A stretch of DNA of 64,000 bases from Iodobacter ciconiae (GTDB lineage: Bacteria; Pseudomonadota; Gammaproteobacteria; Burkholderiales; Chitinibacteraceae), in NCBI RefSeq assembly GCF_003952345.1, contig NZ_CP034433.1, positions 2,480,001 through 2,544,000 of the forward strand, given 5' to 3'. A program made the translations under genes and the position numbers. Below, in pieces: positions 47,203-64,000 of the stretch. Position 1 is the stretch's first letter; every line of letters starts with the position of its first letter. The notes beneath the pieces were generated by a model. That model saw only the letters and a list, made by a program, of their open reading frames with translations. It did no database searches and was not told the origin of the DNA.

Positions 47203-48210
47203 ATGCTTTCCAATCTGCGCTTTTTTAAAAGCTCCTTTATCGTCACCTTTCTTGGTTTGGCCGCAGCCTACTGGTTAGGCGGCCCTAAGGCCATGTTTAT
47301 TGCCGCTATTTTATCGGTATTAGAAGTATCACTTTCTTTTGACAACGCCGTTGTCAATGCAACGGTACTGAAAGATATGGATGCCGTCTGGCGCAAACGC
47401 TTTATAACCTGGGGTATGCTCATTGCCGTATTTGGGATGCGGGTTATTTTCCCGGTACTAATTGTGGCCGTTATTGCACACCTCACTCCATGGGCCGCTT
47501 TAATGATGGCAGTTAGCCAGCCGGAACAATACGCCTCAGCATTAACCTCATCCCATATTGTAGTGGCAGGCTTTGGCGGTACATTTTTGATGATGGTATT
47601 TTTAAAGTTCTTTTTTGATCAGGAGAAAGAGATTCACTGGTTGCATATTGTTGAGTCTCCTCTGGTTAAAATGGGAAAAATGGGGGGAATTGAAATTGGT
47701 CTCTGTTTAATCATTGTTTATCTGATTTCTAATCAGCTTGCTGATCATGGCCAGCTTAGTTTTATTTTGTCCTCTATCGCCGGGATAGTCACTTACATTA
47801 TTGTTGACGGATTTGGCTCTTTATTGGGCGGGGAAGAAAACCACGGCCAAACAACCGTAATCAGAACAGGTTTCTCCGCATTTATGTATTTAGAAGTACT
47901 CGATGCCAGCTTTAGCTTTGATGGTGTAATTGGTGCATTTGCTTTATCCAATAACATTTTTATTATTGCAATTGGCCTGGGTATTGGCGCAATGTTTGTT
48001 CGCTCGCTCACCATTATGTTTGTAGAGAAAGAAACACTGGATCAATTCAGATACCTGGAGCACGGTGCATTTTATGCAATTGGTGCCCTTGCCTTTATTA
48101 TGTTTATTGGTACATTCCACGAGATTCCAGAAATTATTACCGGTTTAATTGGCGCAGGCTTAATTGGTGTTTCATTACTGGCATCGCTACATCATAAAAA
48201 ACACAACTAA
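47203..48210 (+). CDS. TerC-superfamily (DUF475) membrane protein
   Basis: 335-residue membrane protein with about nine hydrophobic segments. It carries the two acidic half-motifs of the TerC/DUF475 group: EVSLSFDNAVVNATVL near residue 40 and EVLDASFSFDGVIGAFAL near residue 226, thought to take part in metal-ion movement. It is convergent with the Ter gene cluster and stops 175 bp from terA, so it is a likely functional partner; TerC and TerD proteins are thought to act together at the membrane. A strong terminator follows. Confidence 0.9.
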   Translation: MLSNLRFFKSSFIVTFLGLAAAYWLGGPKAMFIAAILSVLEVSLSFDNAVVNATVLKDMDAVWRKRFITWGMLIAVFGMRVIFPVLIVAVIAHLTPWAALMMAVSQPEQYASALTSSHIVVAGFGGTFLMMVFLKFFFDQEKEIHWLHIVESPLVKMGKMGGIEIGLCLIIVYLISNQLADHGQLSFILSSIAGIVTYIIVDGFGSLLGGEENHGQTTVIRTGFSAFMYLEVLDASFSFDGVIGAFALSNNIFIIAIGLGIGAMFVRSLTIMFVEKETLDQFRYLEHGAFYAIGALAFIMFIGTFHEIPEIITGLIGAGLIGVSLLASLHHKKHN

Positions 48211-48213
48211 AAA

Positions 48214-48248
48214 AATAAAAAGGGCGATCTTTGTATCGCCCTTTTTTT
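48214..48248. terminator. Bidirectional terminator between terC-like gene and terA
   Basis: Stem AGGGCGAT (48221-48228) and ATCGCCCT (48235-48242) with a six-base loop, an A-rich run before and seven T after. It can end both the plus-strand membrane protein gene and the converging minus-strand Ter operon. Confidence 0.88.
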
Positions 48249-48384
48249 CGCTATTAAAAAGATAAGTCTGATATCAATAGTAACATTTGCTACGTTTAGC
48301 CTATTTACTTAAAAAATGGCAGTTAAGCATCCAGAGTACAAGGCAGGCCGGGGACTATTTCGAAAAATTACCCCAAAATATCCT

Positions 48385-49581
48385 CTAATCTTTGGATCCC
48401 TTCTTAAACCGCAAACCAAATCCAAATCGATCACTAAGCTGCTCATGCGCGCTTTTACCAGCGGAGTGGGCAAAGTACTCTACCAGTTTGGTGACTTGCA
48501 AATTACCCGCTATGTTTTCAATCATGGCAATCGCACACATTGATGCATTACTCCCCTGATCCAAACGAACCTCCACCGGCGCTCTGCCCGGCACTTCGAT
48601 CACCACCACCCCATCAGTTGCCGCCCAGTTGGCTGCGCCTTCGTAGATAAAAGTAAAGATCACCAGCCGCTTAATATGCTGGAACTGATCGCCATTGATA
48701 AAGATATTCTCCCCCCCCGCATTGCTGCCGGAGCGATCGTCTCCCTCCAGGTGAATAAAAGGCGCTTGTGTAAAGCTGCCCCAGCTGTTGCCCAGCGCTT
48801 GAACGCCACCGGGCGTGCCGTCAACCATTTGAAACATACAGGCTAAATCAAGATCAATCCGACCATTGACTGATTGCTTATTCATCAGCTTATTTAAAAA
48901 ACCAGTCTTTTCAGGAGCCCCTCCCTGTGGCGATTGATTCCAGTTTAAGTTAACGCGAATACGGCCAAAACCACCGCCAGTGTTTTTCTCTAAAGAAATC
49001 TTATCACCGCGTTTTTCCAGCGTGATCTTAGACAGGGAAACTGGCTTTGGAGCTAGGGCTGGTGCAGCAACCGGTGCAACTTCCGTACCGCCAAAATGCT
49101 TCAGCAGCGCCGACAAACCGCCACTAAATCCTTGCCCCACCGCAGCAAAACGCCATTGCCCGTCCCGCCGGTAAAGCTCCCCCACAATAACCGCTTTTTC
49201 ATCCTGAAAATCAGCCCCAGTCAATGCAAATTCCACATTCCCCAGACACATGCTGCTGTTAGCCAGCTGGCGCATCGTGCCTTCGCCACTGATTGATGCA
49301 GCAAAAACCAGCTTGTGGATGCTCTCAGGCAAGCGGGCAAGATCGGTCATAAAACGAGCGCTACCCGCCCCCAGCTCCAGCACCACCGCATCCCCGGGGC
49401 AAGATTTCTGGTTAAAAAACACCATATAACGGTCATCAGAGAGCTGATCATGGGCGTCCAGCCCAAAGCAGGTAATATCAATATCCAGCCCTGCAGCATT
49501 CATATTCAAGCGCACAGGAAACACACCTGTGCAGCCCAGATCAGCCAGCTTACCTTTTTGTCCGCGTGTAAAATTTGTCAT
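48385..49581 (-). CDS. terA: TerA-type tandem TerD-domain protein
   Basis: 398-residue protein of the TerA type. The first half (residues 1-165) is a divergent TerD domain (GQKGKLADLG, LSDDRYMVFFNQ, GELYRRDGQWRFAAVGQGF); after a Pro/Ala-rich linker (about 165-185) a second TerD-like domain starts with ITLEKRGDKISLEK and contains GRIDLDLACMFQM and HLEGDDRSGSNAGGENIFI, the usual TerA calcium-loop variant. TerD-fold proteins bind calcium and are linked to tellurite, phage and acid stress responses. It is the last gene of the minus-strand cluster, about 100 bp after the CitE-like gene. Confidence 0.9.
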   Translation of the reverse strand: MTNFTRGQKGKLADLGCTGVFPVRLNMNAAGLDIDITCFGLDAHDQLSDDRYMVFFNQKSCPGDAVVLELGAGSARFMTDLARLPESIHKLVFAASISGEGTMRQLANSSMCLGNVEFALTGADFQDEKAVIVGELYRRDGQWRFAAVGQGFSGGLSALLKHFGGTEVAPVAAPALAPKPVSLSKITLEKRGDKISLEKNTGGGFGRIRVNLNWNQSPQGGAPEKTGFLNKLMNKQSVNGRIDLDLACMFQMVDGTPGGVQALGNSWGSFTQAPFIHLEGDDRSGSNAGGENIFINGDQFQHIKRLVIFTFIYEGAANWAATDGVVVIEVPGRAPVEVRLDQGSNASMCAIAMIENIAGNLQVTKLVEYFAHSAGKSAHEQLSDRFGFGLRFKKGSKD

Positions 49582-49644
49582 GGTTCTCGAGCTTCTGGTA
49601 AATTAGGGAAGAAAAATAATTGATCATTCGAGGTAAGAAAATGA

Positions 49645-49668
49645 GCCCTCCGTGGTTCAAGGCTTGGT
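49645..49668. repeat. Fragment of the dispersed CCCTCCGTGGTTCAAG repeat
   Basis: GCCCTCCGTGGTTCAAGGCT followed by TGGT, in the gap between the CitE-like gene and terA, matches the right-hand arm of the elements at 60152-60394 and 61801-61926. It looks like a solitary remnant. Confidence 0.5.
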
Positions 49669-49683
49669 CTTCTTATGCGCCGC

Positions 49684-50571
49684 TTACACCATGGCATGTA
49701 CCCCGAACACCCTTGCTTGCTCCAGCACGCTGTGCGCCCAGGCACGGTGGGTGGCGACTTCGCACATGGAATCATGCATCCTGAAAACCGCCGGGCTGGA
49801 TTCATCAATAATCTTCATCGCCACATCCACATCCCGGTGCTGCACACGGTAGTGCTGCTCAATCAGAGCCACCTGTCCAGGATGAATCGCGGTTTTACCA
49901 ACCATACCATGGGCCAGGTCTTCTTCCACTTCCTGCGCCAGCAGCGCCGGGTTATCCAGGTGTTCAAACACAGGAGCCGTGAGCACAAAGCCATAGGGGC
50001 GGAAAATAGTCACCAGCTTTGAGATGACGGCACCCAGCGGGGTTTTATAAATAGTTACATGCCGTGGCCTGCGTATACCCAGCAATGCCAGCAAATCATT
50101 GCCGCCAATCCGCAGCGCCTGAATATGATCGCGCACACCGGGCCGCTCCAGGCTTTGGCGTAATAACTTCATCTCGGCATCATCAAACACCTCTACCGTT
50201 TCCAGCGTCGGCATCAGCATAAATTGTGTTTTACGTACCTGCTGAAAATACGCATCAAAATTATGATGGGTAATTTTAGGCAGTACAAAACCGGTGAGCT
50301 TTTCTACACCGGGCATCTCCAGCACCCGCTTCATTACTTCCGGGTTTCTCACCCGCACAAAGCGCTCGGTACCAGGGCGTTCCACCATTTGCTGCAAGAC
50401 CAGCGACAGGCTAAACAGTGCGTAGCTCAGCTCGCTCTCTGCAACCGCATCTTCGGTACAAAAAATCACTGAGCGCAAATCTCCCAGCAATTGACCATCT
50501 GCAATCTGCTGTAAATCTTTGTGGGTTGCAGGCACGTAGAGCGATGCACCCATCACTTTGCTAATCGCCAT
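49684..50571 (-). CDS. CitE-like (HpcH/HpaI aldolase superfamily) lyase of the Ter cluster
   Basis: 295-residue TIM-barrel protein of the citrate lyase beta/HpcH group. Recognisable points are YVPATHKDL near the start, the acidic MLMPTLETVEVFDD (metal/catalytic Glu), LRIGGNDLLALLG (metal Asp) and GKTAIHPGQVALIEQHY near the C-terminus. In this context the substrate is unknown; Ter-linked CitE-like proteins are predicted to make or break a C-C bond in a small-molecule pathway. GGAGTGAAATAA precedes the ATG. It follows the StiP-type gene after 83 bp. Confidence 0.88.
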   Translation of the reverse strand: MAISKVMGASLYVPATHKDLQQIADGQLLGDLRSVIFCTEDAVAESELSYALFSLSLVLQQMVERPGTERFVRVRNPEVMKRVLEMPGVEKLTGFVLPKITHHNFDAYFQQVRKTQFMLMPTLETVEVFDDAEMKLLRQSLERPGVRDHIQALRIGGNDLLALLGIRRPRHVTIYKTPLGAVISKLVTIFRPYGFVLTAPVFEHLDNPALLAQEVEEDLAHGMVGKTAIHPGQVALIEQHYRVQHRDVDVAMKIIDESSPAVFRMHDSMCEVATHRAWAHSVLEQARVFGVHAMV

Positions 50572-50654
50572 TTATTTCACTCCAAATCAAAAATCCCACC
50601 TGACCTTGCTCTGCCCAAACGGCAATACGACCGGATATCAAAAACCTTGCCCCA

Positions 50655-51755
50655 TCAACCATCCAAAACACTCCCGATCAGGGAAACCGCCTGATAAGGC
50701 AGACTCGCATCTACAAGAAGAGGAACGTTTTTTTCTATTGCTAACAACTTTAAATGCGCCACATCGGTTACCGACGGATCGCGTAAAATCAGCAGCCTTG
50801 GCACTCTGCGCAGCAATACACGGGTAGCCTCGCCTATGCCGGGCTTGATCAAATTTACATTCTCAATCCCATGCTGTGCTTGGATGGCCCGCAAAAATTC
50901 AGTTGAAACTCGAGCCATTTTTACCCGGTCAATTGGCAGAGGAGCAGGCACCCCCTGCTCCTCTGCCAGCCGGACGGCATCAGCCACCAGGCCATCAGAA
51001 AATGCTTGAGACTGATCTTGCGACTCAAACTCATCGTAATAAACGCAGCCGTGAAAATCGTCCGGCCCAATTGCGTCGTTCAGTACCGAGCGGCTAACCA
51101 GGCCAGAAACAGTAGCATTCAGGATGCTTGACGGAATCAGATAATCCTCAGCCGAAGCCGCACATGCTGCGGTACCCGCCAGATCAGACAAAACATAAAG
51201 GCCACTATCGATAGCAACACGATGCTGCAGATTAAAAATATCCACCGCCTGCTCCAGCACGCAGGAAATCACGCCTTTGCCAGTCCAGCCATCGATAAAA
51301 ACGATTGATTCCGGGCTGTGTCCCTGCTGCAAAATATGCTGCAAAGCCACAGTGTCAATGCCACGATCACGGATAATCGACACCGAGTAATGCACCACTT
51401 CCCGACCTAATACACGCTGTAAAAGATGCTTTAGAATCACGCCAACGGGCGTTCCAGCACGCACCAAAGAAACCAGCGTAACCGGCCCGCTGCGTCTTGC
51501 TGCAATCAGCGCTGCCAGCCTTAGACAATCTTCTGCCATTTGTTGACGGTTAGCCGCAAGTGCATCCTTAAAAACCTGCAAATAACGAGGGGAAGGCAGG
51601 GACTCTGGTGATAGCATTTCGCTATAATGGCGCGCTCCCGATTGAATCAGAAACTCTTTATTTACCACATCAATAAACGGCTGTTGCGATAAGCGTTTCA
51701 GCAAAAAGCACACATCATCCGGACGATAACTACCGCAAAAACCATGATTACTCAT
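50655..51755 (-). CDS. StiP-type PRTase with C-terminal PELOTA-like domain
   Basis: 366-residue protein. Residues about 35-280 match the StiP/PRTase-1 family of Ter clusters: a phosphoribosyltransferase-like PRPP loop is seen in IVFIDGWTGKGVISCVLEQ, with VSLVRAGTPVGVILKHLLQ before it. The C-terminal 80 residues (from about 285) resemble the PELOTA-type RNA-binding domain found fused here in the family (LLILRDPSVTDVAHLKLLA). Database entries call the family cysteine protease StiP; the PRTase reading fits the visible motif better. It overlaps the HAD gene by four bases. Confidence 0.85.
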   Translation of the reverse strand: MSNHGFCGSYRPDDVCFLLKRLSQQPFIDVVNKEFLIQSGARHYSEMLSPESLPSPRYLQVFKDALAANRQQMAEDCLRLAALIAARRSGPVTLVSLVRAGTPVGVILKHLLQRVLGREVVHYSVSIIRDRGIDTVALQHILQQGHSPESIVFIDGWTGKGVISCVLEQAVDIFNLQHRVAIDSGLYVLSDLAGTAACAASAEDYLIPSSILNATVSGLVSRSVLNDAIGPDDFHGCVYYDEFESQDQSQAFSDGLVADAVRLAEEQGVPAPLPIDRVKMARVSTEFLRAIQAQHGIENVNLIKPGIGEATRVLLRRVPRLLILRDPSVTDVAHLKLLAIEKNVPLLVDASLPYQAVSLIGSVLDG

Positions 51756-52504
51756 AAAGCGGCAACAGTCAGCTTAGCCAGCTGCGTGCCATTCGGAATC
51801 AGCGCGTAATCACAACTCGCCATAAAACGGGCATCTGACTGACTGTCACCCATGCCAATCGTCATGATTTCTCCATACTCTTTTTGCAGCAGAGAGCGCA
51901 CATAATCCACCGCGCGGGCTTTATTTAATGTTTTAGGCAGCAGCGCTAAATTATTGCCATTGCGGTGAATAAAGAAATCTTTACCCTCGCCGGCCACCCA
52001 GGGCTGCAGCGCCTCGTGATCGATTTGCTCCAGATTGGCGTCAATTTTATCCGGGTCTTTAATCAGGGCATAAAACGGCGTATTGCAATCTTCCACCAGA
52101 CGGGCGCGGCCCTTAAAGCCTACTTTTTGGCAGTAATCATCAAGCACCGCCATAGCAGCATGTAAGCCGGGCAGCGCTTGCTGCATATCTGCACGCATGG
52201 TTTCCAGCCAGAATTCATCCACCGCACCACAAGGCTTAAGCACTACGCCGCCGTAATCAATAATGGAATAGCTATTAAACGGTAAATCAACGCGGCGCAA
52301 AGCATCCAGATTACGTGCCGTGCTTGGAATCAGCGTCATCGACGCACTCATCATTTCAAAGAATGCCCGCTGACGCGGGGTGGTAAATGAAATGGCCACG
52401 CCGTCTTTCAGATAGCCAACCGGCTGTAAACCAGCCACGCCTGCGCATTTGCCAAGTGTCTGAAACAACGTGTCATCTAAATCAACGAACAGAAATTTCT
52501 TCAA
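51752..52504 (-). CDS. HAD-superfamily hydrolase of the Ter cluster
   Basis: 250-residue HAD phosphatase. Motif I is FVDLDDTLF at the extreme N-terminus (nucleophile and acid Asp pair); motif IV-like acidic residues are in TIGMGDSQSDARFM. Length and a large cap between suggest a C2-type cap. I start at the TTG at 52504 so that motif I is near the N-terminus; this overlaps the PRTase gene by 23 bases. A longer frame to an ATG at 52540 adds 12 hydrophobic residues and lacks support. It probably dephosphorylates an intermediate of the adjacent PRTase/ATP-grasp pathway. Confidence 0.85.
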   Translation of the reverse strand: MKKFLFVDLDDTLFQTLGKCAGVAGLQPVGYLKDGVAISFTTPRQRAFFEMMSASMTLIPSTARNLDALRRVDLPFNSYSIIDYGGVVLKPCGAVDEFWLETMRADMQQALPGLHAAMAVLDDYCQKVGFKGRARLVEDCNTPFYALIKDPDKIDANLEQIDHEALQPWVAGEGKDFFIHRNGNNLALLPKTLNKARAVDYVRSLLQKEYGEIMTIGMGDSQSDARFMASCDYALIPNGTQLAKLTVAAL

Positions 52505-53651
52505 TATGAGTCTCAGATAAAAAATGAAATAAACGGCCACCTACGGCCTGCGCAGTAGATAAAAGAGCGGCATTCGCAGGCGTTTCGTGACAAATCAGCA
52601 CCTGATCGTACTGGCCGGGTGTGACGTTATAAATGTAATTGGCCACCCCTTCGCCATAATTATCAGCAAAAGTAATCGCCTCGCTGACCGCGCCCCATTT
52701 CAGGATGGGAGAACGGGTAGTCGATTGCACCTGCACATCCACGCCCCGCGCTTCCAAGGCACAGCCCAACAAAAAAGGCAGATGCATAAATTCGCCGGTG
52801 CCCAACACTAAAACCCGCTCATTAGCCCGAAAGCTGGCAGCAAGCTTTGCAGCAAAGCCGGCTGGTGCAGACAAGGGCCGATCTAGGCCCAAACGGCCAA
52901 AGCCAGCGTTAGCACCCCGATCGGCGTGCGCTTCAAAAACTTGCGCTGCCCCGGGTAAGGATTCTAATTGCCCCGGCGTAAAGCAGTACTCGCCGCTCAG
53001 TGCCGCCGCAATCGAGACCGGTATCCCAAAGCGCTGCGACAATGCCTGATTAGCCGCCTGTCCCATAAAATTAGTAATGGTGCACAGATGCACATGTTCA
53101 ATCCTGGAATTAAGCACCCGGCAAGCCTGACTTAAATTCAAAAAGGTATTACCGGTGCTGGCCTCATCATCAACCAAGACGAGGGATCGGGCATTGAGCA
53201 GCAACAAACGCAGCGTTTCATCCTGCGGCATATGCAAAAACTGCCGTGGCGCGTGGCTGTGCGCTTCAGAAAACTCGATGATCTCTGCACCGCCCACGTG
53301 GTAGCGCGAAGTATGTACAAACAACGCTTCAACAGCAGGATGAGCTTTTTTAAATGCCTCGAATACGCCTTGCCCCAAACCGATCGCCGTTTCGGCCATG
53401 GCGATAAACACCAGCGGGCCGGGTAAATCAGCAGGCACTTGCTGCGCCAGATGTTCATGAATTTGGCGCATTGCGGCGGGGCGCACCGGCCAGTGCTTGC
53501 CCAGCACTTTGCTTAAAAACAAAAAGCCGCGCTTGACATTAGCCCTTGCGGCAAAGCCCATCAGCTCATCCACACTGAATGCGCCTGCATCCGTGCTTAA
53601 TTCCATCAGGCCGGTGGGCAATTCAACCCTAATTACTTGGGCATCGCTCAT
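52482..53651 (-). CDS. Phosphoribosyltransferase with C-terminal TRSP domain
   Basis: 389 residues. The N-terminal two-thirds is a PRTase-2 type domain with the PRPP-binding motif SLVLVDDEASTGNTFLNL around residues 156-173. The C-terminal 110 residues form the TRSP domain, named for a motif visible here as TTRSPILKWG. Both domains co-occur in Ter clusters, where they are predicted to build a nucleoside-like product from PRPP. Its ATG overlaps the ATP-grasp stop (ATGA), and the HAD gene overlaps its end, so the three are co-translated. Confidence 0.87.
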   Translation of the reverse strand: MSDAQVIRVELPTGLMELSTDAGAFSVDELMGFAARANVKRGFLFLSKVLGKHWPVRPAAMRQIHEHLAQQVPADLPGPLVFIAMAETAIGLGQGVFEAFKKAHPAVEALFVHTSRYHVGGAEIIEFSEAHSHAPRQFLHMPQDETLRLLLLNARSLVLVDDEASTGNTFLNLSQACRVLNSRIEHVHLCTITNFMGQAANQALSQRFGIPVSIAAALSGEYCFTPGQLESLPGAAQVFEAHADRGANAGFGRLGLDRPLSAPAGFAAKLAASFRANERVLVLGTGEFMHLPFLLGCALEARGVDVQVQSTTRSPILKWGAVSEAITFADNYGEGVANYIYNVTPGQYDQVLICHETPANAALLSTAQAVGGRLFHFLSETHIEEISVR

Positions 53652-54670
53652 TGCAGCTCCGCAGCCCGGCCTAATTCGGCCACTCGCATGCCGTTGTGAA
53701 TTTCAGGTACTTGCACATTATCAAAACCGCGATCAAAACCACGCAAGGCCAGATAAGGCAAATTGGGGCCAGCCAGACAAGCCATGGCAATCCCGCCTGA
53801 CATCCGGGCATTAATTTCTAATAAACCCAGACCTGCCGCTCTTTCCTTGAATTGCACATTGAAATTGCCGTTTAAACCCAGGGTTTTAGCCAGTTGAGTG
53901 ACGCTCTCCAAAATATCACTGCGCATCTCAATCAGCTGGCCACGACCCGCTTGCTTCATCTTTTTACGCGGCACAGCACAAATCAAGCGCCCATGGTCAC
54001 CCACACAATCAACGCTATATTCATGTCCATCCAGATATTCCATCAGAATCATGGTTTTGAAAGTGCCCATGGCGGCAAAGCCACGCTGCAAATCATCAAA
54101 GCCAATCTGATACTGAGCGCCTTCTACCAATAACTGCGCGCAAGAGCGCTCTTCTTCGATCACCGCAAAGCCGAGGCCAAACACCGATTTAGACGGCTTA
54201 ATGCAAAGTTTGGAATGGTCTTGTTTTAATTCTTGGTAGGCCGCTTCAAACTCTGCAGCAGTTTCGATCACACGAAACGCTGCCGGCGGGGTGAGCGGTA
54301 GATCAATCGCCCGATAAAACGCGGCTTTATCATTAATCAAAGTCAGTACGTCAGGGGCTGCCACCGCTAAAACGCGTGTACCCTGCTGTGCAAAACGCTC
54401 ATGCTCTGCACCGATTAATACGGCTTCTTTGCCCGGAATAAAAATTGTAATAGCCTGATCCAGGCAAAACTGTAAACACCAGGCCAGATAGGCTTCACCC
54501 TGCAGGCCGGAAGGCTCAATGACATATTCATGAGCCTCTTGAAAAGCCGCTGAATAAGGATTGGTGTGGCTGGAGACGATATGATAATCGCCAGCAAGAT
54601 CTGCCTCACGAATCAGGCGGATCGCGGCCGCGACAGAGGAAAATGTTTTATTAAACCAGACGTGCTGCAT
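53648..54670 (-). CDS. ATP-grasp ligase of the Ter cluster
   Basis: 340-residue ATP-grasp protein. Visible features: nucleotide-binding KLCIKPSKSVFGLGFAV (lysine and glycine-rich loop), ILMEYLDGHEYSVDC, and the metal-binding LLEINARMSGGIA near the C-terminus. ATP-grasp enzymes join a carboxylate to an amine or thiol through an acyl-phosphate. It is the first gene of the biosynthetic block, after a 238-bp gap from terD that may contain a promoter. Confidence 0.9.
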   Translation of the reverse strand: MQHVWFNKTFSSVAAAIRLIREADLAGDYHIVSSHTNPYSAAFQEAHEYVIEPSGLQGEAYLAWCLQFCLDQAITIFIPGKEAVLIGAEHERFAQQGTRVLAVAAPDVLTLINDKAAFYRAIDLPLTPPAAFRVIETAAEFEAAYQELKQDHSKLCIKPSKSVFGLGFAVIEEERSCAQLLVEGAQYQIGFDDLQRGFAAMGTFKTMILMEYLDGHEYSVDCVGDHGRLICAVPRKKMKQAGRGQLIEMRSDILESVTQLAKTLGLNGNFNVQFKERAAGLGLLEINARMSGGIAMACLAGPNLPYLALRGFDRGFDNVQVPEIHNGMRVAELGRAAELQ

Positions 54671-54908
54671 AGATGCCTTCAGGGAGCAGGCAAGTCGGCC
54701 GGGTCAAGCACCTTACTGAAGAGCACCGGATCAGTGTTCTATACCGGGTGTTTTCTTTTCAACAGTAGTTCGCCTCAAAAAAACTCAAAACAGAGCATTT
54801 TTCGTTAAATAAGCACTCAAACCCGACAAACAGCCAGCACAGAGACTGTCTCCGGCAAGATTTCGGAAACAGACCTCCATGCGGATAGAGAAATTTAAAT
54901 ATTTGCTT

Positions 54909-55490
54909 TTACAAGTGCGGTGTAATTTGTGGCATCAGCTCATCAAAAGTGCGGCCATTACCAATTTCACCGATAGCGTGCATTTTCCACTCGTTATTAT
55001 GACGATACAGCTTGGCCATAATTTGCGCGTTGTGCGAGCCCAGTGCTGACAAATTAAAACGTGCGACTTCTTTGCCGTCACTGGCATTCACAATACGGCA
55101 AGTGGCATTGGCAATTTGTGAGAAGTTCTGGCCGGTAAAGCTGTTCACCGTGAAGACCAGGCTCTTGATATTGGCAGGCACACGCGTCAAATCAACTACG
55201 ATTTGCTCATCATCACCATCGCCTTCACCGGTACGGTTATCCCCCGTATGCATTACCGAGCCGTCTTTTGATTTCAGCTGACGAAACCAGACCGCATCCA
55301 CCGGATGGCCCTGCTCGTCAAACAAAATGCACGACGCATCCAGATCAATATCCGGAGCGCTGCCACCAAAACCCAGAAACCCCTTTGACTTCACGGCATC
55401 CCAGGCGAGACCCATGATAATTTTACTTAATGTAACGCCAGCCTCTTTATCAAGGGAAATCTTCTGGCCTTTCTCTAGGTTAATCGCCAT
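54909..55490 (-). CDS. terD: TerD-family calcium-binding protein (TerZ-like)
   Basis: 193-residue single TerD domain. It starts MAINLEKGQKISLDKEAG, then shows the calcium-binding acidic set APDIDLDASCILFD and HTGDNRTGEGDGDDEQIVVDL, both intact. A slightly long insert (GFLGFGGSAPDI) resembles TerZ. AAGGAG lies seven bases before the ATG, a strong site. Cytoplasmic; thought to bind calcium and contact TerC-type membrane proteins. Confidence 0.94.
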   Translation of the reverse strand: MAINLEKGQKISLDKEAGVTLSKIIMGLAWDAVKSKGFLGFGGSAPDIDLDASCILFDEQGHPVDAVWFRQLKSKDGSVMHTGDNRTGEGDGDDEQIVVDLTRVPANIKSLVFTVNSFTGQNFSQIANATCRIVNASDGKEVARFNLSALGSHNAQIMAKLYRHNNEWKMHAIGEIGNGRTFDELMPQITPHL

Positions 55491-55524
55491 GCTGTACTCC
55501 TTAATTGATGAAAATAAATGAATC

Positions 55525-56235: not shown

Positions 56236-56279
56236 GGCGCAACAACACCTTTATCAGTTTTTTGCTTCACGCAAATTAT

Positions 56280-57584
56280 TTAAATAAGCCCATGTTGAGC
56301 AGCCAGCTTTAGCCAACCCGGATATTCCGTCATCAGCAGATCATAAAGCGCTGCATCAGAACACTCATCAGGTGAGCTCAGCGAAAAATAATCGGCATTA
56401 TCAATCAAGCGGCCCGGTAAATCATCAAGGCTTTCCAGAAAAGGGAAATCAGAATCAGCAAACGCCAATAAACGTTTATTTTTCGACTTTCTCCCCTTAC
56501 CTATGCCCATAAACTGCCAGAAAATGGGCTCTTTACTCGACCAGCGCAATTGCTTTTCGGTGAGTGCTTTATCCGAGGTCGACCCGTCGGTTACAAACAT
56601 CACATAGACAGGCTGTGCGGCTTTGCTCAGCCCCAGGCATTCACCCGCAGCGTTTTCCGGAAAATAAAACTTGCGAATCGCCTCCATCGCACGCCCATAG
56701 CGTGTATCGCCCTCCAGAGGATGGCGCTGAATAATCTGCTGAATATAGCCCTGGCAATTGCTCAATTCCATAGGCGCGGGCTGATGGACTTTTTCGCCAA
56801 ATAAAAACACATCAATGGCACCGTCATCATCAAACTGGCAAGCCAAAGCAAGGATACGGTCTGCAAATGCTTGTACGAGTCCCTTTTTATACAGGGCGCT
56901 CATCGAGCCGGAAATATCGAGACATAAACAGACTCTGGCACGATGCTGCTCTAAGCCCGCTTTTTGCAACGAAACACCCGCAGCCTTATGCAAATTAACA
57001 AGTTGCGGCGCGGCGCTGGCTATTTTTTTCTCTAAAGATACTTTCGCGGCAGCCGGCAGCGGATCGTCTGCCACACTGCCGCCAAAATAAGTAACTAAAG
57101 CATCCAGCCCGCCATCAAAGCCCTGGCCCACGGCCATAAAACGCCAAACACCCTCTTTGCGGTAAAACTCGCCCAGCATTAATGCTCGCTCGGCGGAAAA
57201 ATCAGATCCTGCAAAAGAAAAGCGGCCGTGTTCACGCTCTCCCTCAATAATTCTTAAATATCCTGAACGCAAGAGCGACATTGTTCCGCCCTCGCTGACA
57301 CTCGCGGCCACAACGACACGCTCTATGCTGGCAGGTAGTTTTTGCAGCTGAAAAGCAAAACCTGCCGCATCTCCCTGCACATTGCAAACGGCAACACCAC
57401 CACAAGGGGTGCACGTTTGATTAAAAAACGTCATGTAACGATCATCGGAGAGTTTGCCTGCCGAATCTAAGCTAAAGCAGGCAAAGTCAACAGGCAACCC
57501 TCCAGCTACAAGACCTACTTGAAAGGACCCTGTCGGAATCACTTCTCGAATATTCAGGCGCTGGCCCTTAACAAGTAGCGTCAT
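56280..57584 (-). CDS. TerD-domain/vWA fusion (TerF-like)
   Basis: 434 residues. The N-terminal divergent TerD domain (1-170; LSDDRYMTFFNQ, GEFYRKEGVWRFMAVGQGFD) is close in pattern to the first half of TerA. A linker with a KVSLEKK segment leads to a von Willebrand A domain (from about 215) with an intact MIDAS, CLDISGSMS, and FVTDGSTSD. TerF-like proteins join the calcium-sensing and vWA parts of the pathway. I start at the ATG at 57584 with AGGA seven bases upstream; a TTG eight codons earlier would overlap the TerD gene. Confidence 0.9.
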   Translation of the reverse strand: MTLLVKGQRLNIREVIPTGSFQVGLVAGGLPVDFACFSLDSAGKLSDDRYMTFFNQTCTPCGGVAVCNVQGDAAGFAFQLQKLPASIERVVVAASVSEGGTMSLLRSGYLRIIEGEREHGRFSFAGSDFSAERALMLGEFYRKEGVWRFMAVGQGFDGGLDALVTYFGGSVADDPLPAAAKVSLEKKIASAAPQLVNLHKAAGVSLQKAGLEQHRARVCLCLDISGSMSALYKKGLVQAFADRILALACQFDDDGAIDVFLFGEKVHQPAPMELSNCQGYIQQIIQRHPLEGDTRYGRAMEAIRKFYFPENAAGECLGLSKAAQPVYVMFVTDGSTSDKALTEKQLRWSSKEPIFWQFMGIGKGRKSKNKRLLAFADSDFPFLESLDDLPGRLIDNADYFSLSSPDECSDAALYDLLMTEYPGWLKLAAQHGLI

Positions 57585-57597
57585 TAAGCGATCCTGA

Positions 57598-58173
57598 TTA
57601 GGCAGCAATACCGAAAGAACGAGCCAAAGGTGCTAAGCCGCCGGCAAAGCCCTGGCCTACCGCTTTGAATTTCCATTCGGAGCCAGCACGGTAGATTTCA
57701 CCAAAAACCATGGCTGTTTCTGTAGAGCTGTCTTCTGACAAGTCATAACGCGCGATTTCTTTATCGCCATTGGCATCAAGGCAGCGGATATACGCTTTAC
57801 CTACCATACCAAAGTTCTGCTTACGCGCTTCAGCATCATGGATGGTTACACCAACGGTGATTTTTTCAATCTCGGCAGGCACTAAAGCCAGGTCAATCAC
57901 GATTTTTTCATCATCACCTTCACCCTGGCCGCTGGTGTTGTCACCTGCATGAGTCACCGAACCATCGGTCGATTTCAGATTATTGTAAAAAATGAAGTCA
58001 GAATCAGCACGAACCTTGCCGTCGGCCTTAAGCATGAAAGCACTGCCATCCAGATCGAAAGCAGAGCCATCGGTAACGCGTGGATCCCAGCCCAGACCAA
58101 TCACCAACTTTTTGAGGGAAGGCGCTTCTTTACTCAGATTGACGTTGCCGCCTTTTTGCAGACTAATAGCCAT
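57598..58173 (-). CDS. terD: TerD-family calcium-binding protein
   Basis: 191-residue single TerD domain, closest in style to TerD/Ter[19 protein letters not shown] begins the domain; calcium ligands are in [14 protein letters not shown] and [20 protein letters not shown], intact. AAGGAG seven bases before the ATG gives a strong start, as for the other terD here. It opens the downstream half of the cluster after a 431-bp gap, so a promoter is probably located there. Confidence 0.95.
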
Positions 58174-58604
58174 GAACGAAACTCCTTAAAAAAATGAACG
58201 ATACGCCTTACAAAAACCGGCGAAGCTTTTACAACATATGAAACTGGATAATATCGACAAAGCCAGCTGGCAAAACATTTTCACCAAAAGCCGCTTCAGC
58301 AACAAACGCCCTACTTAGAATCTGTTCACTTGAAAGCATTTTCAAGTGAAGCCGGGTAATTTATCTTATTAACTTATCATAAACCCCACATTCAACAGGA
58401 AAACAAACCCGGATAAACCCGCTGGCTGCCAAACTTGTTTTTTGTCAGGCGCTGGCTTACAAAAGACAGGACAAGAACATAATAGTTCCATACATACCTA
58501 CTTTTTACGTCCTGATCAGTAATACCCAGCCAGATCAATACTCTAGGCCCGTGCAAAACTAAACCTTTAGCGCCAGCTTTTCAGGAACGCTCATTCAAAA
58601 CACT
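58174..58604. other. Long gap upstream of terD with a hairpin
   Basis: 431 bp without a gene. A perfect 9-bp stem (CACTTGAAA at 58327-58335, TTTCAAGTG at 58340-58348, loop GCAT) lies about 155 bp upstream of the terD start and could be an operator or attenuator. The promoter of the terD half of the cluster is expected here; candidate -10/-35 pairs are too weak to assign. Confidence 0.5.
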
Positions 58605-60101
58605 CTAACGAGCCCCGCCCACCATCTGCACCACCACCAGACGCCCTCCTTCAGCCTTATCCAGCAGAATTTGCTGACCATCTTTCAGCTCAAGTTTGCC
58701 GCCTATGGCAATAATCTGTTTGGTCACCACATCCATTAAACCAGGCAGCCCTACATTAAAAATCCACCATACATTGCGATAAAAAATAAAGTAAGCCACT
58801 CGCGACTTGTGCTCATCAGCCAGCTTTTCATTCGGGGCCAGTAAATAATTAGCGTGCCAAGGGTAAAGCGATTGCCCTTCCCAAACCAATAACCGGTGAT
58901 TATCAGGACGGAACTGCCCTTCTTGCCTGGATGAATACAGATTAAGCACCGGCAGCTGCCCATGGTAAGCCGAACCACAAAACGGGCATGCAGGCTGGGT
59001 GGAGTTATCAAATACAAACCATTTTTGCTCACAGCGGCAGGGCAGCACCAGATCAATGGTTTTAAGCAGCGCCGTTTCCCAATCATTGGCCGACGGGCGC
59101 AGATTGGGCTGATGCAGGCCATCAACAAATGCCTGCGTAAACAGTGGTGTCAGATAAGGGCCAGTCAAGGTATAGGGCAACTTGCTGCTGTCTGCCCATG
59201 GCAGCTCGGCAGGCTTGGCATCAGCCAGAAGAATGCGATTACTTGCATCTACGGGGTGCTCGACAAACAGGGCCTGCTCGCCCATAGACAGTGCTTCATC
59301 CCGCTGCTCATCATGCATATCGTGCACTTTGCCGCCGCGCAAAGGGTGGCGATACAGCAGATACATATAGATCAGCACGGCCAGCGCATGCTGGTCTGTT
59401 TCGCGGCGCGGCAAATTGCGCTGCGGATCGCCCTTGGCCAAATGGCTGGTGCTCACCACTTCCGGAGCAATAAAATCAGGCGTACCCACCACATCGGGCG
59501 GATATCGCCCCGGCACCACCAGGCCATCCACATCAATCACGCAGGCAAAGCCCCCCGACGGATCGACCAGCACGTTCTTATAAGACAAATCAGAATGCGC
59601 CAGCCCCGCCATATGCATACGGCGCACAGCACGGGCAATCAATACGCCAATTTTTAAATAGCTAAGCCAGTCACCCAGCTCGCGCTGATCGACAAAACGC
59701 TGACGCAAACTGGCTGCAGCAAACCATTTTCCTTCTTTTTCCTTGCCCTTGATCTCAAGCATGTCATGATTTTTGGAGCCAAATTCAAAGAAAAAATGTG
59801 CAGGATAAGTTGGGGCGATTAAACCGAGTTTGCCTTCATATTCCAAAAGCGCAGTTGGCCAGCAAAACAGGTTTTTCCAGTAATCCCCGCCCGCCTGATT
59901 AAAAATCCCCTCGCGATATTTGCCGATAATCATCTGCAGCCGCTCCAGCGCCTGAGCGTCCTGCTTATTCTTATAAAACGCCACCACGTAAGACTTATCC
60001 GGCGAAAAATAAACCTCCTTCATCGCCCCGGAAGCAATCATCTCATCCACAAACTCAACCTGCTGCCCATCCAGCGTGCGGCACTGAATCACCTTCGCCA
60101 T
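58605..60101 (-). CDS. Ter-cluster protein kinase with C-terminal zinc ribbon
   Basis: 498 residues. Residues 20-345 are a eukaryotic-like protein kinase: catalytic loop H169-S-D-L-S-Y-K-N176, the DFG-position segment D190-V-D-G193 and an APE-like APEVV near 212. A zinc ribbon follows (C355, C357, C372, C375). The C-terminal 110 residues are unrecognised. No transmembrane segment, so cytoplasmic. Pairing with the PP2C gene 309 bp upstream and the two TerY proteins forms the phospho-signalling triad (TerY-phosphatase-kinase) described for Ter systems. Confidence 0.9.
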   Translation of the reverse strand: MAKVIQCRTLDGQQVEFVDEMIASGAMKEVYFSPDKSYVVAFYKNKQDAQALERLQMIIGKYREGIFNQAGGDYWKNLFCWPTALLEYEGKLGLIAPTYPAHFFFEFGSKNHDMLEIKGKEKEGKWFAAASLRQRFVDQRELGDWLSYLKIGVLIARAVRRMHMAGLAHSDLSYKNVLVDPSGGFACVIDVDGLVVPGRYPPDVVGTPDFIAPEVVSTSHLAKGDPQRNLPRRETDQHALAVLIYMYLLYRHPLRGGKVHDMHDEQRDEALSMGEQALFVEHPVDASNRILLADAKPAELPWADSSKLPYTLTGPYLTPLFTQAFVDGLHQPNLRPSANDWETALLKTIDLVLPCRCEQKWFVFDNSTQPACPFCGSAYHGQLPVLNLYSSRQEGQFRPDNHRLLVWEGQSLYPWHANYLLAPNEKLADEHKSRVAYFIFYRNVWWIFNVGLPGLMDVVTKQIIAIGGKLELKDGQQILLDKAEGGRLVVVQMVGGAR

Positions 60102-60151
60102 ACCTAACTCCTGATTGCCTGCTGCAAAATAATCCCAGATATTGATGCCTT

Positions 60152-60394
60152 AAACCCAAATCTTGAACCACGGAGTTTGGGAGGGTACAAAAGGCCATGG
60201 AAAAAACCTTTAGGGTGTGCAGGTTTTTATGCCCACGCATTTATGCGCCACTCACCGAGAGTGAGTGGCCCTGTGTCTTCCCTACTGTTTTGTTTCTTAT
60301 GCGCAAAAAAAGGGAAATAGAGAAAACTCAGCCTTGAGTTTTCTCCATGAAACTCCGTGTTCTCTGTGCCCTCCATGGTTCAAGATTTGGGTTT
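60152..60394. repeat. Palindromic dispersed element with 22-bp ends
   Basis: Left end AAACCCAAATCTTGAACCAC then GG (60152-60173) and right end CCATGGTTCAAGATTTGGGT then TT (60373-60394) are inverted repeats with one mismatch. Two inner hairpins are seen: GCCACTCAC/GTGAGTGGC (60247-60269) and AGAAAACTCA/TGAGTTTTCT (60321-60344). It fills the whole gap between the PP2C and kinase genes, and its parts recur at 61801-61926, 49645-49668 and, weakly, near 6430. Confidence 0.7.
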
Positions 60395-60410
60395 TAGCAG
60401 ATACCCCAAC

Positions 60411-61688
60411 TCAAGCCCAAAGCAGCGTCATGCTCCGGTCATCATGATGGCCGGGGATGAAAAAACCCATCCAGTCCAGCAGGCTTTGTTCCGGGTGTTC
60501 TGCCACAAGGCTTGGGGCGATTTCGTCCCAGAGGGCATTCCATTTATCAGCGCTGACGAGGCCTTTATCAGTTTCAAATTTGGGGTCAGAAATGCCGTCA
60601 CTCATCAAAATCACCGCCGAAATATCGGTATAACGGCCAATTTTTATCCGCTGTGCAAAGCGATCAGAAGCCAGAGCAGCCCGATCTAGAAAGCGCGTTT
60701 GGCCTGCAAATTCACCACTATCGGGCAGGCCCATCAGCCGCACTTTGCCTCGCGGCCCATAAGCGGCGATCGCCCCGTCTCCGATCCAGAAGGTGGCCAA
60801 AAAGAGTTGCCCACCTTCCCGCTTCACTGCCGCTGCTAACAGGGTGCTCGCATAGTCCTTGGCGTCGCTTTGCTGTGATATTGCGGCTTGCTCTATGGCG
60901 TCCACCGCCAAAGTAGCTGCATCGTAAAATACAGAATGAAACTGCCCACCGATTTGCCCGCTAATGGATTCTGGATCAGCATCCCAAGCTTGCAAGGCAT
61001 GGTTGATGCTGGCTCCAAGATCCGCTTTTAAAACAGTCAGCAAATATTCCCCGGCAGTCTCTACCGCCAGCTTTGAGCCATAGCGGGAATACCTGGCACT
61101 GCCAGCGCCATCGGCCACCAGCAACACGCTCCAGCCCGATGCGGCGTCGTGCTGCACAAAAAAATCATCGTCTCTGAACAGGCCTGCATGTTCGTGCGAG
61201 CGGCCACGGCGGCTGGCGGCGGCGATTTTTAAATCACCCTCATTGATTGCCTGCGTGGCGCTATGCGGCTTAGGGTAAATCGCATCACTGGCTGGCTCAT
61301 TGATTTGCCACAGGCTGCGCGGATCAGGATTCACCAGCAGCACGCATTGTCCTGCACGCCAGTGCACGCCATCGGCTGACCACTGAAAGGTGATGAGATG
61401 ATCTCCAGCGACGTTGGGCTGCCCCAGCAATTCTCCTTGCTCGCTCAAAGTCAGTGCCAGAGCGGCAGGTAAGACGATCTCTTTAAACTGCAAGGCCCGA
61501 CCATCGCCCCCAACTTCACGCAACTTGCCGCAATAAACCTGCCCCGCCTTAGCATTAGGCGCTTGAAAAACCACTCTGGGACTCAGCGGCTGGCTCGCCA
61601 CCGTGCCAGCAGGCGGTATTGCGCCGGGCTTATTGGATAAATGAATAGGAGCGGATTCAGGGGAATTTGCATCAGAAGGAAGGTGCAT
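60411..61688 (-). CDS. PP2C-type protein phosphatase with N-terminal beta domain
   Basis: 425 residues. The C-terminal PP2C domain (about 150-425) keeps the metal-binding motifs: ADGAGSARYS (D193, G194), FWIGDGAIAAYG (D304), MSDGISD (D364, D368) and the final HDDRSMTLL. The N-terminal part (about 40-125) looks like an Ig-like beta module (VLPAALALTLSEQGELLGQP), reminiscent of the He_PIG motif; this is an inference. It probably reverses the action of the adjacent kinase. Confidence 0.88.
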   Translation of the reverse strand: MHLPSDANSPESAPIHLSNKPGAIPPAGTVASQPLSPRVVFQAPNAKAGQVYCGKLREVGGDGRALQFKEIVLPAALALTLSEQGELLGQPNVAGDHLITFQWSADGVHWRAGQCVLLVNPDPRSLWQINEPASDAIYPKPHSATQAINEGDLKIAAASRRGRSHEHAGLFRDDDFFVQHDAASGWSVLLVADGAGSARYSRYGSKLAVETAGEYLLTVLKADLGASINHALQAWDADPESISGQIGGQFHSVFYDAATLAVDAIEQAAISQQSDAKDYASTLLAAAVKREGGQLFLATFWIGDGAIAAYGPRGKVRLMGLPDSGEFAGQTRFLDRAALASDRFAQRIKIGRYTDISAVILMSDGISDPKFETDKGLVSADKWNALWDEIAPSLVAEHPEQSLLDWMGFFIPGHHDDRSMTLLWA

Positions 61689-61800
61689 AGCCGTCTCGTG
61701 TATTCCCCGTTCAAATCAGTAGCGAGGAAAAATAAAGTTATCAGGGAGAACCGTATGAAGAATTGGGCACAAAGCTAAAGACAGCTGTTCGCCTTGCAAT

Positions 61801-61926
61801 AAAACCCAAATCTTGAAACACGGAGGGCACAGAGAACACGGAGTTTCACGGAGAAAACCTTGCTATGTTTTTCTCCGTGGCCCTCCGTGTTCTCCTGGAT
61901 CGAAGTGGCTTAAGATGTGGTTTTTT
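61801..61926. repeat. Second palindromic copy of the dispersed element
   Basis: Begins AAAACCCAAATCTTGAAACA then CGGAGGGCACAGAGAACACG, and ends in a partly complementary TTAAGATGTGGTTTTTT. The inner CACGGAGAAAAC / TTTTTCTCCGTG arms pair well. It fills most of the gap between the vWA/TerY-C gene and the PP2C gene. Confidence 0.65.
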
Positions 61927-61930
61927 GTCA

Positions 61931-62974
61931 TCACCCCCTCCCGCGCCCTACATCAAAGCCATCCTCGTCCCCTGAACAACTAAACGAGACTAATTTTTTG
62001 CACCAGGGGCAAAAGCCTTCTTCTGGGCCGTTGATGCACATGAGTTTCCCACAGCCACAGGCAGCAAAGGCGGTGAAGTTGCCGCAGTGCGGGCAGCCTG
62101 GGGTACCGATTAAATCTGCGCTATTTACTTTTAGATCCATTGCCCGTGGGTCGGACCAGATAAAATAATCTTCTTCCAGCGGATAGCAGCCCGCTATCTC
62201 GAAATGGGATACTTGCAGTTTAAAATCTCTGGTTGCCACATCCCGAATGGCCCGGTCATACTTCATCAAATAGGGTTTACGGGTTTTCTGGCAGCGCCCC
62301 ACCAAAGTGATGCAGGCTTCATCAGCCTGTTTGGAAGGAGGATTTTTGAAAATACGCATCAGGCTGGCGTCAATATTAGCCAGAGATTGCGCATCGCTTT
62401 CCCCGACGCTTTTGCTTTGCGCCACCACGGAAGCCGTTACCCAGTTAATAAACTTTTTGAAATCACCTTCCTGCGTGTCTTCAAACATCATGGCATTGTC
62501 GGTTAACCTGCCCAGTGTTTCAAAATCGACCGACTGGCCCAGCCCCACCGCAATCAGCGTGGCCTTTTTGGCGTATTTGGCATTCCAGCGATCAATAGCT
62601 GCGTTAGGATTATCGGTTGGGCGGCCATCGGTAAAAAGATAAACAATCGGCTTCCAATCACCTTTGCGATCAGGCGTAGTTTTAACCACACTGCTATCTA
62701 ACTCGGCCATGAGCGCTTCTAATGCCACGCCCAGGCTGGTTCCTCCGCCAAGTGGCAATTTAGGCGGGTAAAAAGAAACCAGCTCAACCAGGGGAGCAAT
62801 AGTTTTAGCCACACCCGCAAAGGCAATCACCGAGATATAAACGGTTTCCAGGGCATGAGGGTCTGTTCTGAGTGCACGGACAATAGCTTGCAGACCGTCT
62901 TCCATTTTCTGCAGGCTGTCGCCCACCATTGATTCGGAACAATCCAAAACAAAAAATACCGGTAATCTGCGCAT
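61931..62974 (-). CDS. TerY-type vWA protein with C-terminal zinc domain
   Basis: 347 residues. The vWA domain (1-200) has an intact MIDAS: D11-C-S13-E-S15, the Thr in GGGTSLGVAL and FTDGRPTDN. The C-terminal 130 residues carry a cysteine-rich module (CPHCG, CGCGKLMC, CPWC) matching the TerY-C type zinc domain. vWA proteins of Ter clusters are proposed to act as metal-dependent adaptors for the kinase/phosphatase pair. Confidence 0.9.
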   Translation of the reverse strand: MRRLPVFFVLDCSESMVGDSLQKMEDGLQAIVRALRTDPHALETVYISVIAFAGVAKTIAPLVELVSFYPPKLPLGGGTSLGVALEALMAELDSSVVKTTPDRKGDWKPIVYLFTDGRPTDNPNAAIDRWNAKYAKKATLIAVGLGQSVDFETLGRLTDNAMMFEDTQEGDFKKFINWVTASVVAQSKSVGESDAQSLANIDASLMRIFKNPPSKQADEACITLVGRCQKTRKPYLMKYDRAIRDVATRDFKLQVSHFEIAGCYPLEEDYFIWSDPRAMDLKVNSADLIGTPGCPHCGNFTAFAACGCGKLMCINGPEEGFCPWCKKLVSFSCSGDEDGFDVGRGRG

Positions 62975-63034
62975 GGTTTTGCTCTTTTAATTAAATGTAT
63001 CGCTTAAATAGCTACGCGTTGACTAACGCCTGCC

Positions 63035-63673
63035 CTACAGAACAAGATGAATTTCTGCGGGGGGTGGCGGTAAAGCCACATCATTGGCAACACCGGCGCT
63101 GTTGCTGCCCATGGCAACGCTGGCAGAGACCCATTTAAAAAAGCCAGTAAACGCCGAGGCATCCAGAGTATCCAGCGTCACCACACGATCTGTAAGCTCC
63201 AACAGATATTCCTGCTTGGCTTTGGGGCCTGCGGCACAGGCAATGATGGCCCCGAACTGACACTGTTTAATCGCAGGAATCGCTTGCCTGAAGGCATGCA
63301 GATCAGAGGGGCTGCCATCGGTCATTAAAAACATCAGCGGGCGCCAGTCGCCTTTTTCATCTTCGCTGCTTTTTTGCACATCGCGCTCAAGGCACTCAAG
63401 CAGCAGCTCTAAAGCAGCGCCCATAAAGGTAGCTCCGGCGCTGGGGGAGCTCACTTCCTGCAACTGCACATCGGCCAGAGGCGTTAATGGCAGATATTCA
63501 CGTGCTTCCAAATCGAAAGTAATAATCGACAGAGCCACACTTTCCAGAGCGTAAGGATCTTGTCTTAAAGCGCTAAGCATGGCCTGCAAGCCCACATTCA
63601 CCGAGTGAATAGGCTCGCCACGCATGGAACCGGATGTATCAAGAAGAATATAAACAGGAAGACGTCGGCTCAT
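63035..63673 (-). CDS. terY: TerY vWA-domain protein
   Basis: 212-residue, single vWA domain, the usual TerY size. The MIDAS is intact (D12-T-S14-G-S16; Thr in SAGATFMGAAL; LMTDGSPSD). It ends in a Pro-rich tail. A paralogue with an added zinc domain lies 60 bp downstream. Start ATG at 63673. Confidence 0.92.
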   Translation of the reverse strand: MSRRLPVYILLDTSGSMRGEPIHSVNVGLQAMLSALRQDPYALESVALSIITFDLEAREYLPLTPLADVQLQEVSSPSAGATFMGAALELLLECLERDVQKSSEDEKGDWRPLMFLMTDGSPSDLHAFRQAIPAIKQCQFGAIIACAAGPKAKQEYLLELTDRVVTLDTLDASAFTGFFKWVSASVAMGSNSAGVANDVALPPPPAEIHLVL

Positions 63674-63796
63674 GATGCTCTCTATAAGGGGCGCTCATTA
63701 ACAGATCACCCACATATTTTCATTTATGCCGGGGCCACGTTTAAACATCAGGCTCCCGGCCGCACAAAAAATACGATCCACTCAATGAATACAGAT

Positions 63797-64000
63797 TCAA
63801 CTGTACTGTTTTAACCACTCAACAAATGAATCTGATTGCGATGGTGCACCAATTGCGTTGAATTTCCAGCCGCCAGCCTCACGAATTAATTCGGCAAACA
63901 GCAAGGAGCGGCAATTTTCATACTGAGCACCACCAGATAAATCAAAGCGCACCATTTCCCGGCCTTTACCATCTTCAGCCCGGATAAAGGCATTTTGCAC
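63797..64000 (-). CDS. TerD-like protein, C-terminal fragment (5' end outside window)
   Basis: Last 67 residues of a protein whose frame stays open to the window edge. The pattern NAFIRAEDGKGREMVRFDLS, LLFAELIREAGGWKFNAIG, then FVEWLKQYS at the end matches the C-terminal part of a TerD domain as in the complete TerD proteins of this cluster. It is the first visible gene of the Ter operon, so the island continues beyond the window. Confidence 0.8.
   Translation of the reverse strand: MQNAFIRAEDGKGREMVRFDLSGGAQYENCRSLLFAELIREAGGWKFNAIGAPSQSDSFVEWLKQYS

Follow-up and report, generated by a model that had tools for sequence, protein, structure and literature searches.

Published accounts link the ter genes to resistance against tellurite, phages and colicins, report that Te, Zn and Mn induce them, and predict that their product is nucleoside-like (excerpts of PMC12054061, PMC8115787 and PMC7824862). 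Klebsiella carries two ter operons, including a set of 14 genes of potential biosynthetic function; terZ-F restored tellurite resistance in a Klebsiella terC mutant and, alone and without the biosynthetic operon, conferred tellurite resistance on Escherichia coli MG1655 (excerpts of PMC8115787). The Ter-dependent stress response systems combine TerD paralogues, TerF/TerY von Willebrand factor A (vWA) proteins, a kinase and a phosphatase with phosphoribosyltransferases (PRTases), a HAD protein, an ATP-grasp protein and a lyase (Anantharaman, Iyer, Aravind 2012, as cited in later papers), and AIM24 has been associated with TerD (PMC5822837, in excerpt). All of these components, with AIM24 beside TerD, are shared by the chromosomal island analyzed here, which lies in Iodobacter ciconiae and reaches the right edge of a 64,000-nucleotide stretch (the window; positions 2480001-2544000 of G000:C1, from a single-contig 3.88-Mb genome labelled G000). 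We consider it probable that this is a complete Ter island for chemical stress, apparently in working order and with three linked arms, which the Iodobacter-like genus has either gained or kept.

The open reading frames of the window give 14 consecutive minus-strand genes from 48385 to 63673 with no frame break, faced by a convergent plus-strand gene at 47203-48210. Two further TerD genes complete the right end. The first (63797-64438) crosses the window edge, and the second (64547-65125 in window-equivalent numbering) is followed on the same strand by a LysR gene, placing the right end of the island 1.1 kb past the window. The whole island comprises 16 genes in 16,741 bases (16.7 kb), six of them with a TerD domain. 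Pfam names 13 of the 14 in-window genes, most with scores far above the curated cut-off. Motifs sought in the kinase, the PP2C phosphatase, the three vWA proteins, the HAD protein and both PRTases were all present; we take their functional meaning in these proteins as given. The marks of a Ter system in the broad sense are found here, namely several TerD genes, the five-enzyme order, and a module of TerY vWA protein, PP2C phosphatase and kinase. As read from its genes, the island is complete and intact, a chromosomal copy of a Ter system that is widespread and has been described before. Its base composition falls inside the range of the remaining window and therefore gives no signal of foreign origin. 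The ATP-grasp, PRTase_2, HAD and StiP genes overlap, all four, and some other genes are separated by gaps of 238-431 bp, so the island need not be one transcript. PADLOC defence models run against 10 of the proteins returned weak kinase-domain matches and nothing else, and Rfam found no structured RNA at its gathering threshold in the whole window; three sub-threshold Rfam matches between 46 and 64 kb were chance-like.

An earlier note on this DNA had already reported at least 14 contiguous minus-strand genes running off the right edge, with TerD, vWA-TerY, PRTase/TRSP and ATP-grasp families, a kinase/phosphatase pair and a five-enzyme biosynthetic block. This catalogue is right. The count is 14 unbroken genes, or 16 with the two beyond the edge; the Pfam hidden Markov model search assigned every one of the named families and the pair as well; and four of the five enzymes are recognized by Pfam, with the HAD protein resting on weak NCBIfam matches and motifs. 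The note was wrong in two other respects, the boundary of the system and its obscurity: what is found is a well-formed, conserved member of the described Ter systems.

The claim that the system was little described is countered by published loci of this kind (PMC8115787, in excerpt) and by plasmid databases, where StiP, one of the five enzymes and the marker of the system, matched 2,567 of 72,556 records; 2,555 of these matches cover 80% or more of the query, and most of the records come from Klebsiella, Escherichia, Enterobacter and Salmonella. Three of 50,697 phage records also matched, two being the same phage. A search for homologues of StiP gave at least 7,900 proteins at E <=1e-10 among 7,995 scored, and the closest named proteins among the best 120 listed are from Iodobacter. 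A scan for close relatives of the ATP-grasp protein found four loci at 82-85% identity, two of them from Iodobacter and two from metagenome-assembled genomes labelled Proteobacteria and Janthinobacterium. Iodobacter belongs to the Neisseriales, the order that the earlier note had assumed.

The best StiP match among the plasmid records is pPNAP04 of Polaromonas naphthalenivorans (NC_008760), which shares the five-enzyme order and the set of kinase, PP2C, TerY_C, vWA and TerD genes. Most shared proteins are 66-91% identical; PP2C and the second vWA protein reach 50-54%, and DUF475 47%. On pPNAP04, however, the signalling genes are divergently oriented and the cluster includes DUF475, whereas the Iodobacter island runs all in one direction; pPNAP04 gave no AIM24 match and has a TerF-like gene (40% identical) about 6 kb away, while in Iodobacter TerF and AIM24 are inserted. 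Klebsiella terZABCDEF with its 14-gene biosynthetic operon (PMC8115787, in excerpt) shares both halves and the five-enzyme order, at 26-42% identity for the enzymes and 43-70% for the shared signalling proteins, but its operon includes terB and terC, and its halves face opposite ways. Acinetobacter phage vB_AbaM_ME3 (PMC7824862, in excerpt) shares the order PRTase_2-HAD-StiP near TerD, vWA and DUF475; it differs in being phage-borne, and ATP-grasp, lyase, kinase and phosphatase were not matched in its 17-kb stretch.

In an effort to place the island within its genus, we compared 61 genomes. StiP and TerD occur in seven of the nine genomes of the genus; among the other 52, from the family and order, StiP occurs in none and TerD in two. 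All seven carriers hold the island at one same site and in the same gene order apart from TerF, which is present in G000, G007 and G008 only and missing in four. Pairwise ratios of nonsynonymous to synonymous substitution rates (dN/dS) are 0.02-0.13 for all 16 genes, at dS values of 0.5-1.5 that are partly saturated (15 genes compared between G000 and G003, G007 and G008; TerF between G000 and G007 and G008). These ratios show that all 16 island genes are under purifying selection. Together with the order and site shared with the six other carriers, they argue that the island is not a chance assembly.

The two non-carriers, G001 and G004, are defined as genomes without a TerD or StiP match (AIM24 and the kinase lay outside that search). 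Here the order is DUF475, a 538-residue gene, LysR, and two genes that we take, from our own reading of the sequences, to be azoreductase-like and pirin-like; the gap at the empty site measures -3 bases in G004 and 162 in G001. The 538-residue gene of G004 encodes a methyl-accepting chemotaxis protein, its counterparts being judged by size and place, and a chemoreceptor-sized gene sits between DUF475 and the island in six carriers. Alone among the nine genomes, G000 has no such gene beside DUF475 (window 46039-48210), and on its other side DUF475 is flanked in the window by an OmpW gene. A tree of four neighbouring genes groups the two non-carriers together (support 1.0), with a support of 0.469 for their placement; as the tree is unrooted, it does not distinguish gain from loss of the island in the genus.

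The convergent gene itself (47203-48210, plus strand; PF04332, E 9.1e-105) encodes a DUF475 membrane protein of the TerC superfamily, which the earlier note had included in the system. All nine genomes of the genus have it, island-carrying or not; because G001 and G004 keep it without TerD or StiP, it is independent of the island here. An eight-sequence tree separates the Iodobacter DUF475 (support 1.0) from the DUF475 proteins that lie within the Polaromonas, phage ME3 and G031 Ter clusters. Island membership of DUF475 was accordingly ruled out, both by its presence in the two non-carriers and by its placement outside the Ter-associated group; it is an older chromosomal neighbour that does not belong to the acquired unit. 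The closeness of a TerC-superfamily gene to a Ter island lacking a terC may be chance. A terminator-like inverted repeat lies at 48217-48246, between DUF475 and the last island gene, although the scan overall gave no excess over shuffled sequence.

In the enzyme block, the StiP gene (50655-51755, minus strand) encodes a StiP domain (PF11202, E 1.6e-99) followed by PELOTA_1 (PF15608, E 2.9e-28). Its AlphaFold2 model (mean predicted local distance difference test score 90.8) has a PRTase-like fold with the strand-loop-helix phosphoribosyl pyrophosphate loop of type I PRTases; a fold search with the model returned HPRT/PyrR-like matches of moderate strength, and the C-terminal part matches L7Ae proteins. 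The DGWTGKG loop is present in 238 of 238 homologues. Upstream, the PRTase_2-TRSP protein (52482-53651, minus strand), an APRT-like PRTase with a C-terminal TRSP domain in which Pfam recognizes PRTase_2 and TRSP, has the PRTase fold and the DDE(S/T)TG motif in its PRTase_2 domain. The predicted models of these two enzymes are thus PRTase-like, one clearly and one moderately. Among solved structures, no convincing sequence relative was found for the StiP N-terminal or the TRSP domain, and the fold search barely covered TRSP. These two phosphoribosyltransferase-like enzymes fit the published prediction of a nucleoside-like product.

The models give an indication that StiP joins a PRTase-like domain to an L7Ae-type RNA-binding domain and is not a protease. 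Public records name it otherwise: the label cysteine protease stands on 24 of the 25 plasmid records listed, on several other records and in the Pfam description, and would add a proteolytic step to the block. No cysteine is invariant, however; the best column reaches 200 of 238 homologues, and 10 of 12 in a more divergent set. No paper turned up in the literature that connects StiP with tellurite and proteases; the cysteine protease label led to one, on gut microbiota enzymes, and Iodobacter together with tellurite to one on Antarctic mats. On this conservation, and with a predicted fold resembling PRTases, we rejected the protease assignment, which is scarcely credible. The L7Ae-type domain raises a different possibility, that the block acts on RNA, with this domain taking the PRTase-like domain and its invariant loop to kink-turn RNA for base exchange or excision under stress. 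This we consider rather unlikely, since no RNA target was found, no Rfam family exceeded threshold in the window, and the HAD phosphatase, ATP-grasp protein and lyase suit a small-molecule route better.

Between 48385 and 65125 there is no match to the TerB or TerC family, so the classical terZABCDEF arrangement, with terB and terC inside the operon, is not that of the island. This also sets it apart from the Ter-dependent systems (2012, as cited), its classical TerB standing alone elsewhere on the chromosome. The solo terB lies at G000:C1:3191906-3192259 (L063 7810-8268), about 650 kb from the island, and its product matches the solved TerB structure 2jxu along its length (E 4.6e-38). TerB scores above the cut-off in all seven carriers and in neither non-carrier (none in G001, a weak sub-cut-off match in G004). 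This tracking of the island across nine genomes suggests a functional linkage, although a single evolutionary event may account for the split of seven to two. In every carrier, terB adjoins a gene that we take, by our own reading of its sequence, to be DEAD-box-helicase-like. Upstream of the helicase and terB of G000 (L063 1084-3532), a methylase-like frame split by a transposase-like frame was seen by eye beside a large helicase-like frame.

All 11 genomes searched, island-bearing or not, have a TerC gene at another place. There is also a second locus, with vWA, TerD, a 245-residue protein and TelA, at 3,108 kb in G000 (L010 7605-10863), found in five of the nine genomes (G000, G003, G005, G006 and G007); VgrG-like frames were seen by eye beside it in G000. 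One could read Ter in this genus as a dispersed regulon, in which the island would supply sensors, phospho-switch and enzymes, the solo TerB and, in the five genomes, the TerD-vWA-TelA locus would complete a membrane complex, and the output would be RNA-linked nucleotide chemistry by a kink-turn-tethered StiP PRTase. In its entirety we hold this to be very unlikely.

The association of the enzymes with TerD was examined in 398 Pseudomonadota genomes. StiP scored above the cut-off in 12 and TerD in 42; four more StiP matches fell below the cut-off and were left out of the count. TerD was present in 11 of the 12 StiP genomes versus 31 of the 386 without StiP (Fisher p = 5.5e-11, or 4.8e-10 with our own genome left out, both uncorrected for relatedness). 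Across the 11 other StiP genomes, TerD lies on the same contig within 20 kb in eight, on another contig in two (fragmented) and is absent from one. PRTase_2 lies within 2 kb of StiP in all 11, and HAD was matched in five of the seven StiP stretches read from these genomes. Because the ATPgrasp_Ter and lyase families proved unspecific in control genomes (matches in 13 of 14 and 6 of 14), only their matches beside StiP were counted. The order ATP-grasp, PRTase_2, HAD, StiP, lyase recurs on plasmids of Polaromonas, P. putida and Klebsiella, with one inserted gene in P. putida. The enzyme block is therefore a genuine unit, in which PRTase_2 and StiP form a constant core and the ends are optional; TerD accompanies it as a rule, with exceptions. 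The expectation that the blocks travel together is borne out by this co-occurrence and by the match in order and composition to plasmid clusters of three other genera. Within the family, G031 has a Ter cluster (L031 748-9096) with kinase, PP2C, TerY_C, two vWA, two TerD and DUF475 genes, and no StiP match.

Several observations weigh against a single system with three linked arms. StiP is missing from 31 of the 42 TerD genomes. G311 has PRTase_2, StiP and HAD genes (L057 6643-9899) and TerD nowhere in its genome, so the enzymes can do without Ter proteins. Nor are all arms obligatory: in the 11 other StiP genomes, the C-C lyase occurs within 1 kb of StiP in seven, and the cluster includes ATPgrasp_Ter in only four and TerY_C in two, although some may be missed on short contigs. 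The 7-to-2 split of carriers may reflect one evolutionary event, and the island holds no TerC. The first two points speak for a locus concerned mainly with metal or tellurite tolerance, TerD and vWA proteins giving the phenotype with the TerC and DUF475 that the genome already encodes, and the five enzymes being passengers with a separate metabolic role; the sufficiency of terZ-F in E. coli and its rescue of the Klebsiella mutant, noted above, point the same way. Nonetheless, the enzymes lie between TerD genes in seven of seven islands and under comparably strong selection, and StiP nearly always occurs with TerD. A passenger block is a serious contender but an unlikely one, and we favor the chemical-stress island with linked arms.

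In the first arm of that island, the TerD-family and TerF/TerY vWA proteins would form metal-dependent assemblies under the inner membrane, joined by TerC-type and TerB proteins whose genes lie outside the island. The island genes concerned, listed here with the AIM24 gene that lies among them, are all on the minus strand. At the right end, TerD_a1 (PF02342, E 4.5e-86; outside the window, at the equivalent coordinates given above) precedes TerD_a2 (63797-64000 within the window, ending at equivalent 64438; PF02342, E 1.2e-51), a vWA protein (63035-63673; PF00092, E 1.9e-09; DTSGS motif) and a TerY-type vWA protein with the TerY_C metal-binding domain (61931-62974; PF15616, E 2.3e-56; PF00092, E 3.1e-13). 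Further along lie TerD_b (57598-58173; PF02342, E 1.2e-83), which matches the solved TerD structure PDB 2kxt over its full length (residues 1-190, E 7e-80), the TerF-type protein with TerD and vWA domains (56280-57608; PF10138, vWA-TerF, E 1.1e-53; PF02342, E 5.2e-28), the AIM24-family protein (55525-56235; PF01987, E 4.6e-55) and TerD_c (54909-55490; PF02342, E 6.2e-54). The last gene of the island encodes a TerA-like protein of 398 residues (48385-49581; PF02342, E 2.8e-31, residues 25-163), the second half of which has no Pfam match; it is 67% identical to its pPNAP04 counterpart and 35% to Klebsiella terA.

The second arm would be a phosphorylation switch acting on these assemblies, formed by the kinase and the PP2C phosphatase, both likewise on the minus strand. 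The kinase (58605-60101; PF00069, E 2.5e-08) has HSDLSYKN and DVDG motifs and a Cys-rich C-terminal part, and its Pfam score is barely above the cut-off (34.1 versus 31.7 bits). The phosphatase (60411-61688; PP2C_2, PF13672, E 1.4e-43) has the motifs DGAGS, SDGISD and DDRS.

In the third arm, the five enzymes may make a small nucleotide- or nucleoside-derived compound once stress or phage is sensed. The block opens, on the minus strand, with the ATP-grasp ligase (53648-54670; ATPgrasp_Ter, PF15632, E 1e-43), which overlaps the following APRT-like PRTase gene by 4 bases. The third gene (51752-52540, minus strand) has no Pfam match and only NCBIfam HAD-IIB matches below their cut-offs; with its DLDDT and GDSQSD motifs, its product looks like a HAD-IIB-like phosphatase. 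The putative RNA-binding PRTase StiP comes fourth, and a CitE/HpcH-type C-C bond lyase (49684-50571, minus strand; C-C_Bond_Lyase, PF15617, E 1.4e-94) closes the block.

Upstream of TerD_b lies a 431-bp gap (58174..58604), a candidate regulatory region; among the gaps compared, its conserved non-coding blocks are the longest. The element TTGTCCTGTCTTYTGTAAGC at 58455-58474 on the minus strand is found in seven of seven islands and matches once in the window at <=3 mismatches, with 0.02 expected. Scans of 22 loci at <=4 mismatches found none near TerB or the second TerD locus; one weak match was found on a Klebsiella stretch. An alternative reading of the motif as an 11-bp repeat was dropped, as it gave one window match and occurred by chance in 13 of 100 shuffles. 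The gap also has, ahead of TerD_b, an invariant CGCC/GGCG inverted repeat. No structured RNA is claimed for the gap, where RNAalifold gave a covariation term of only -1.66, with 8 of 54 pairs changing on both sides and the CGCC/GGCG stem invariant. Promoter and terminator scans gave fewer matches than shuffled sequence, and therefore no promoter is claimed. Overall, the conserved blocks suggest that the gap may serve as a promoter or operator region.

For the Ter family, the value of this locus lies in its setting. A complete chromosomal copy in a probably environmental bacterium, together with two natural non-carriers, provides a clean comparison and a deletion target. The unoccupied site shows that DUF475 is a neighbouring gene to be left out of the model. 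StiP as an RNA-binding phosphoribosyltransferase would redirect the biochemistry of the block. The locus does not by itself answer the general Ter question, what the enzyme block produces, but it makes that question testable.

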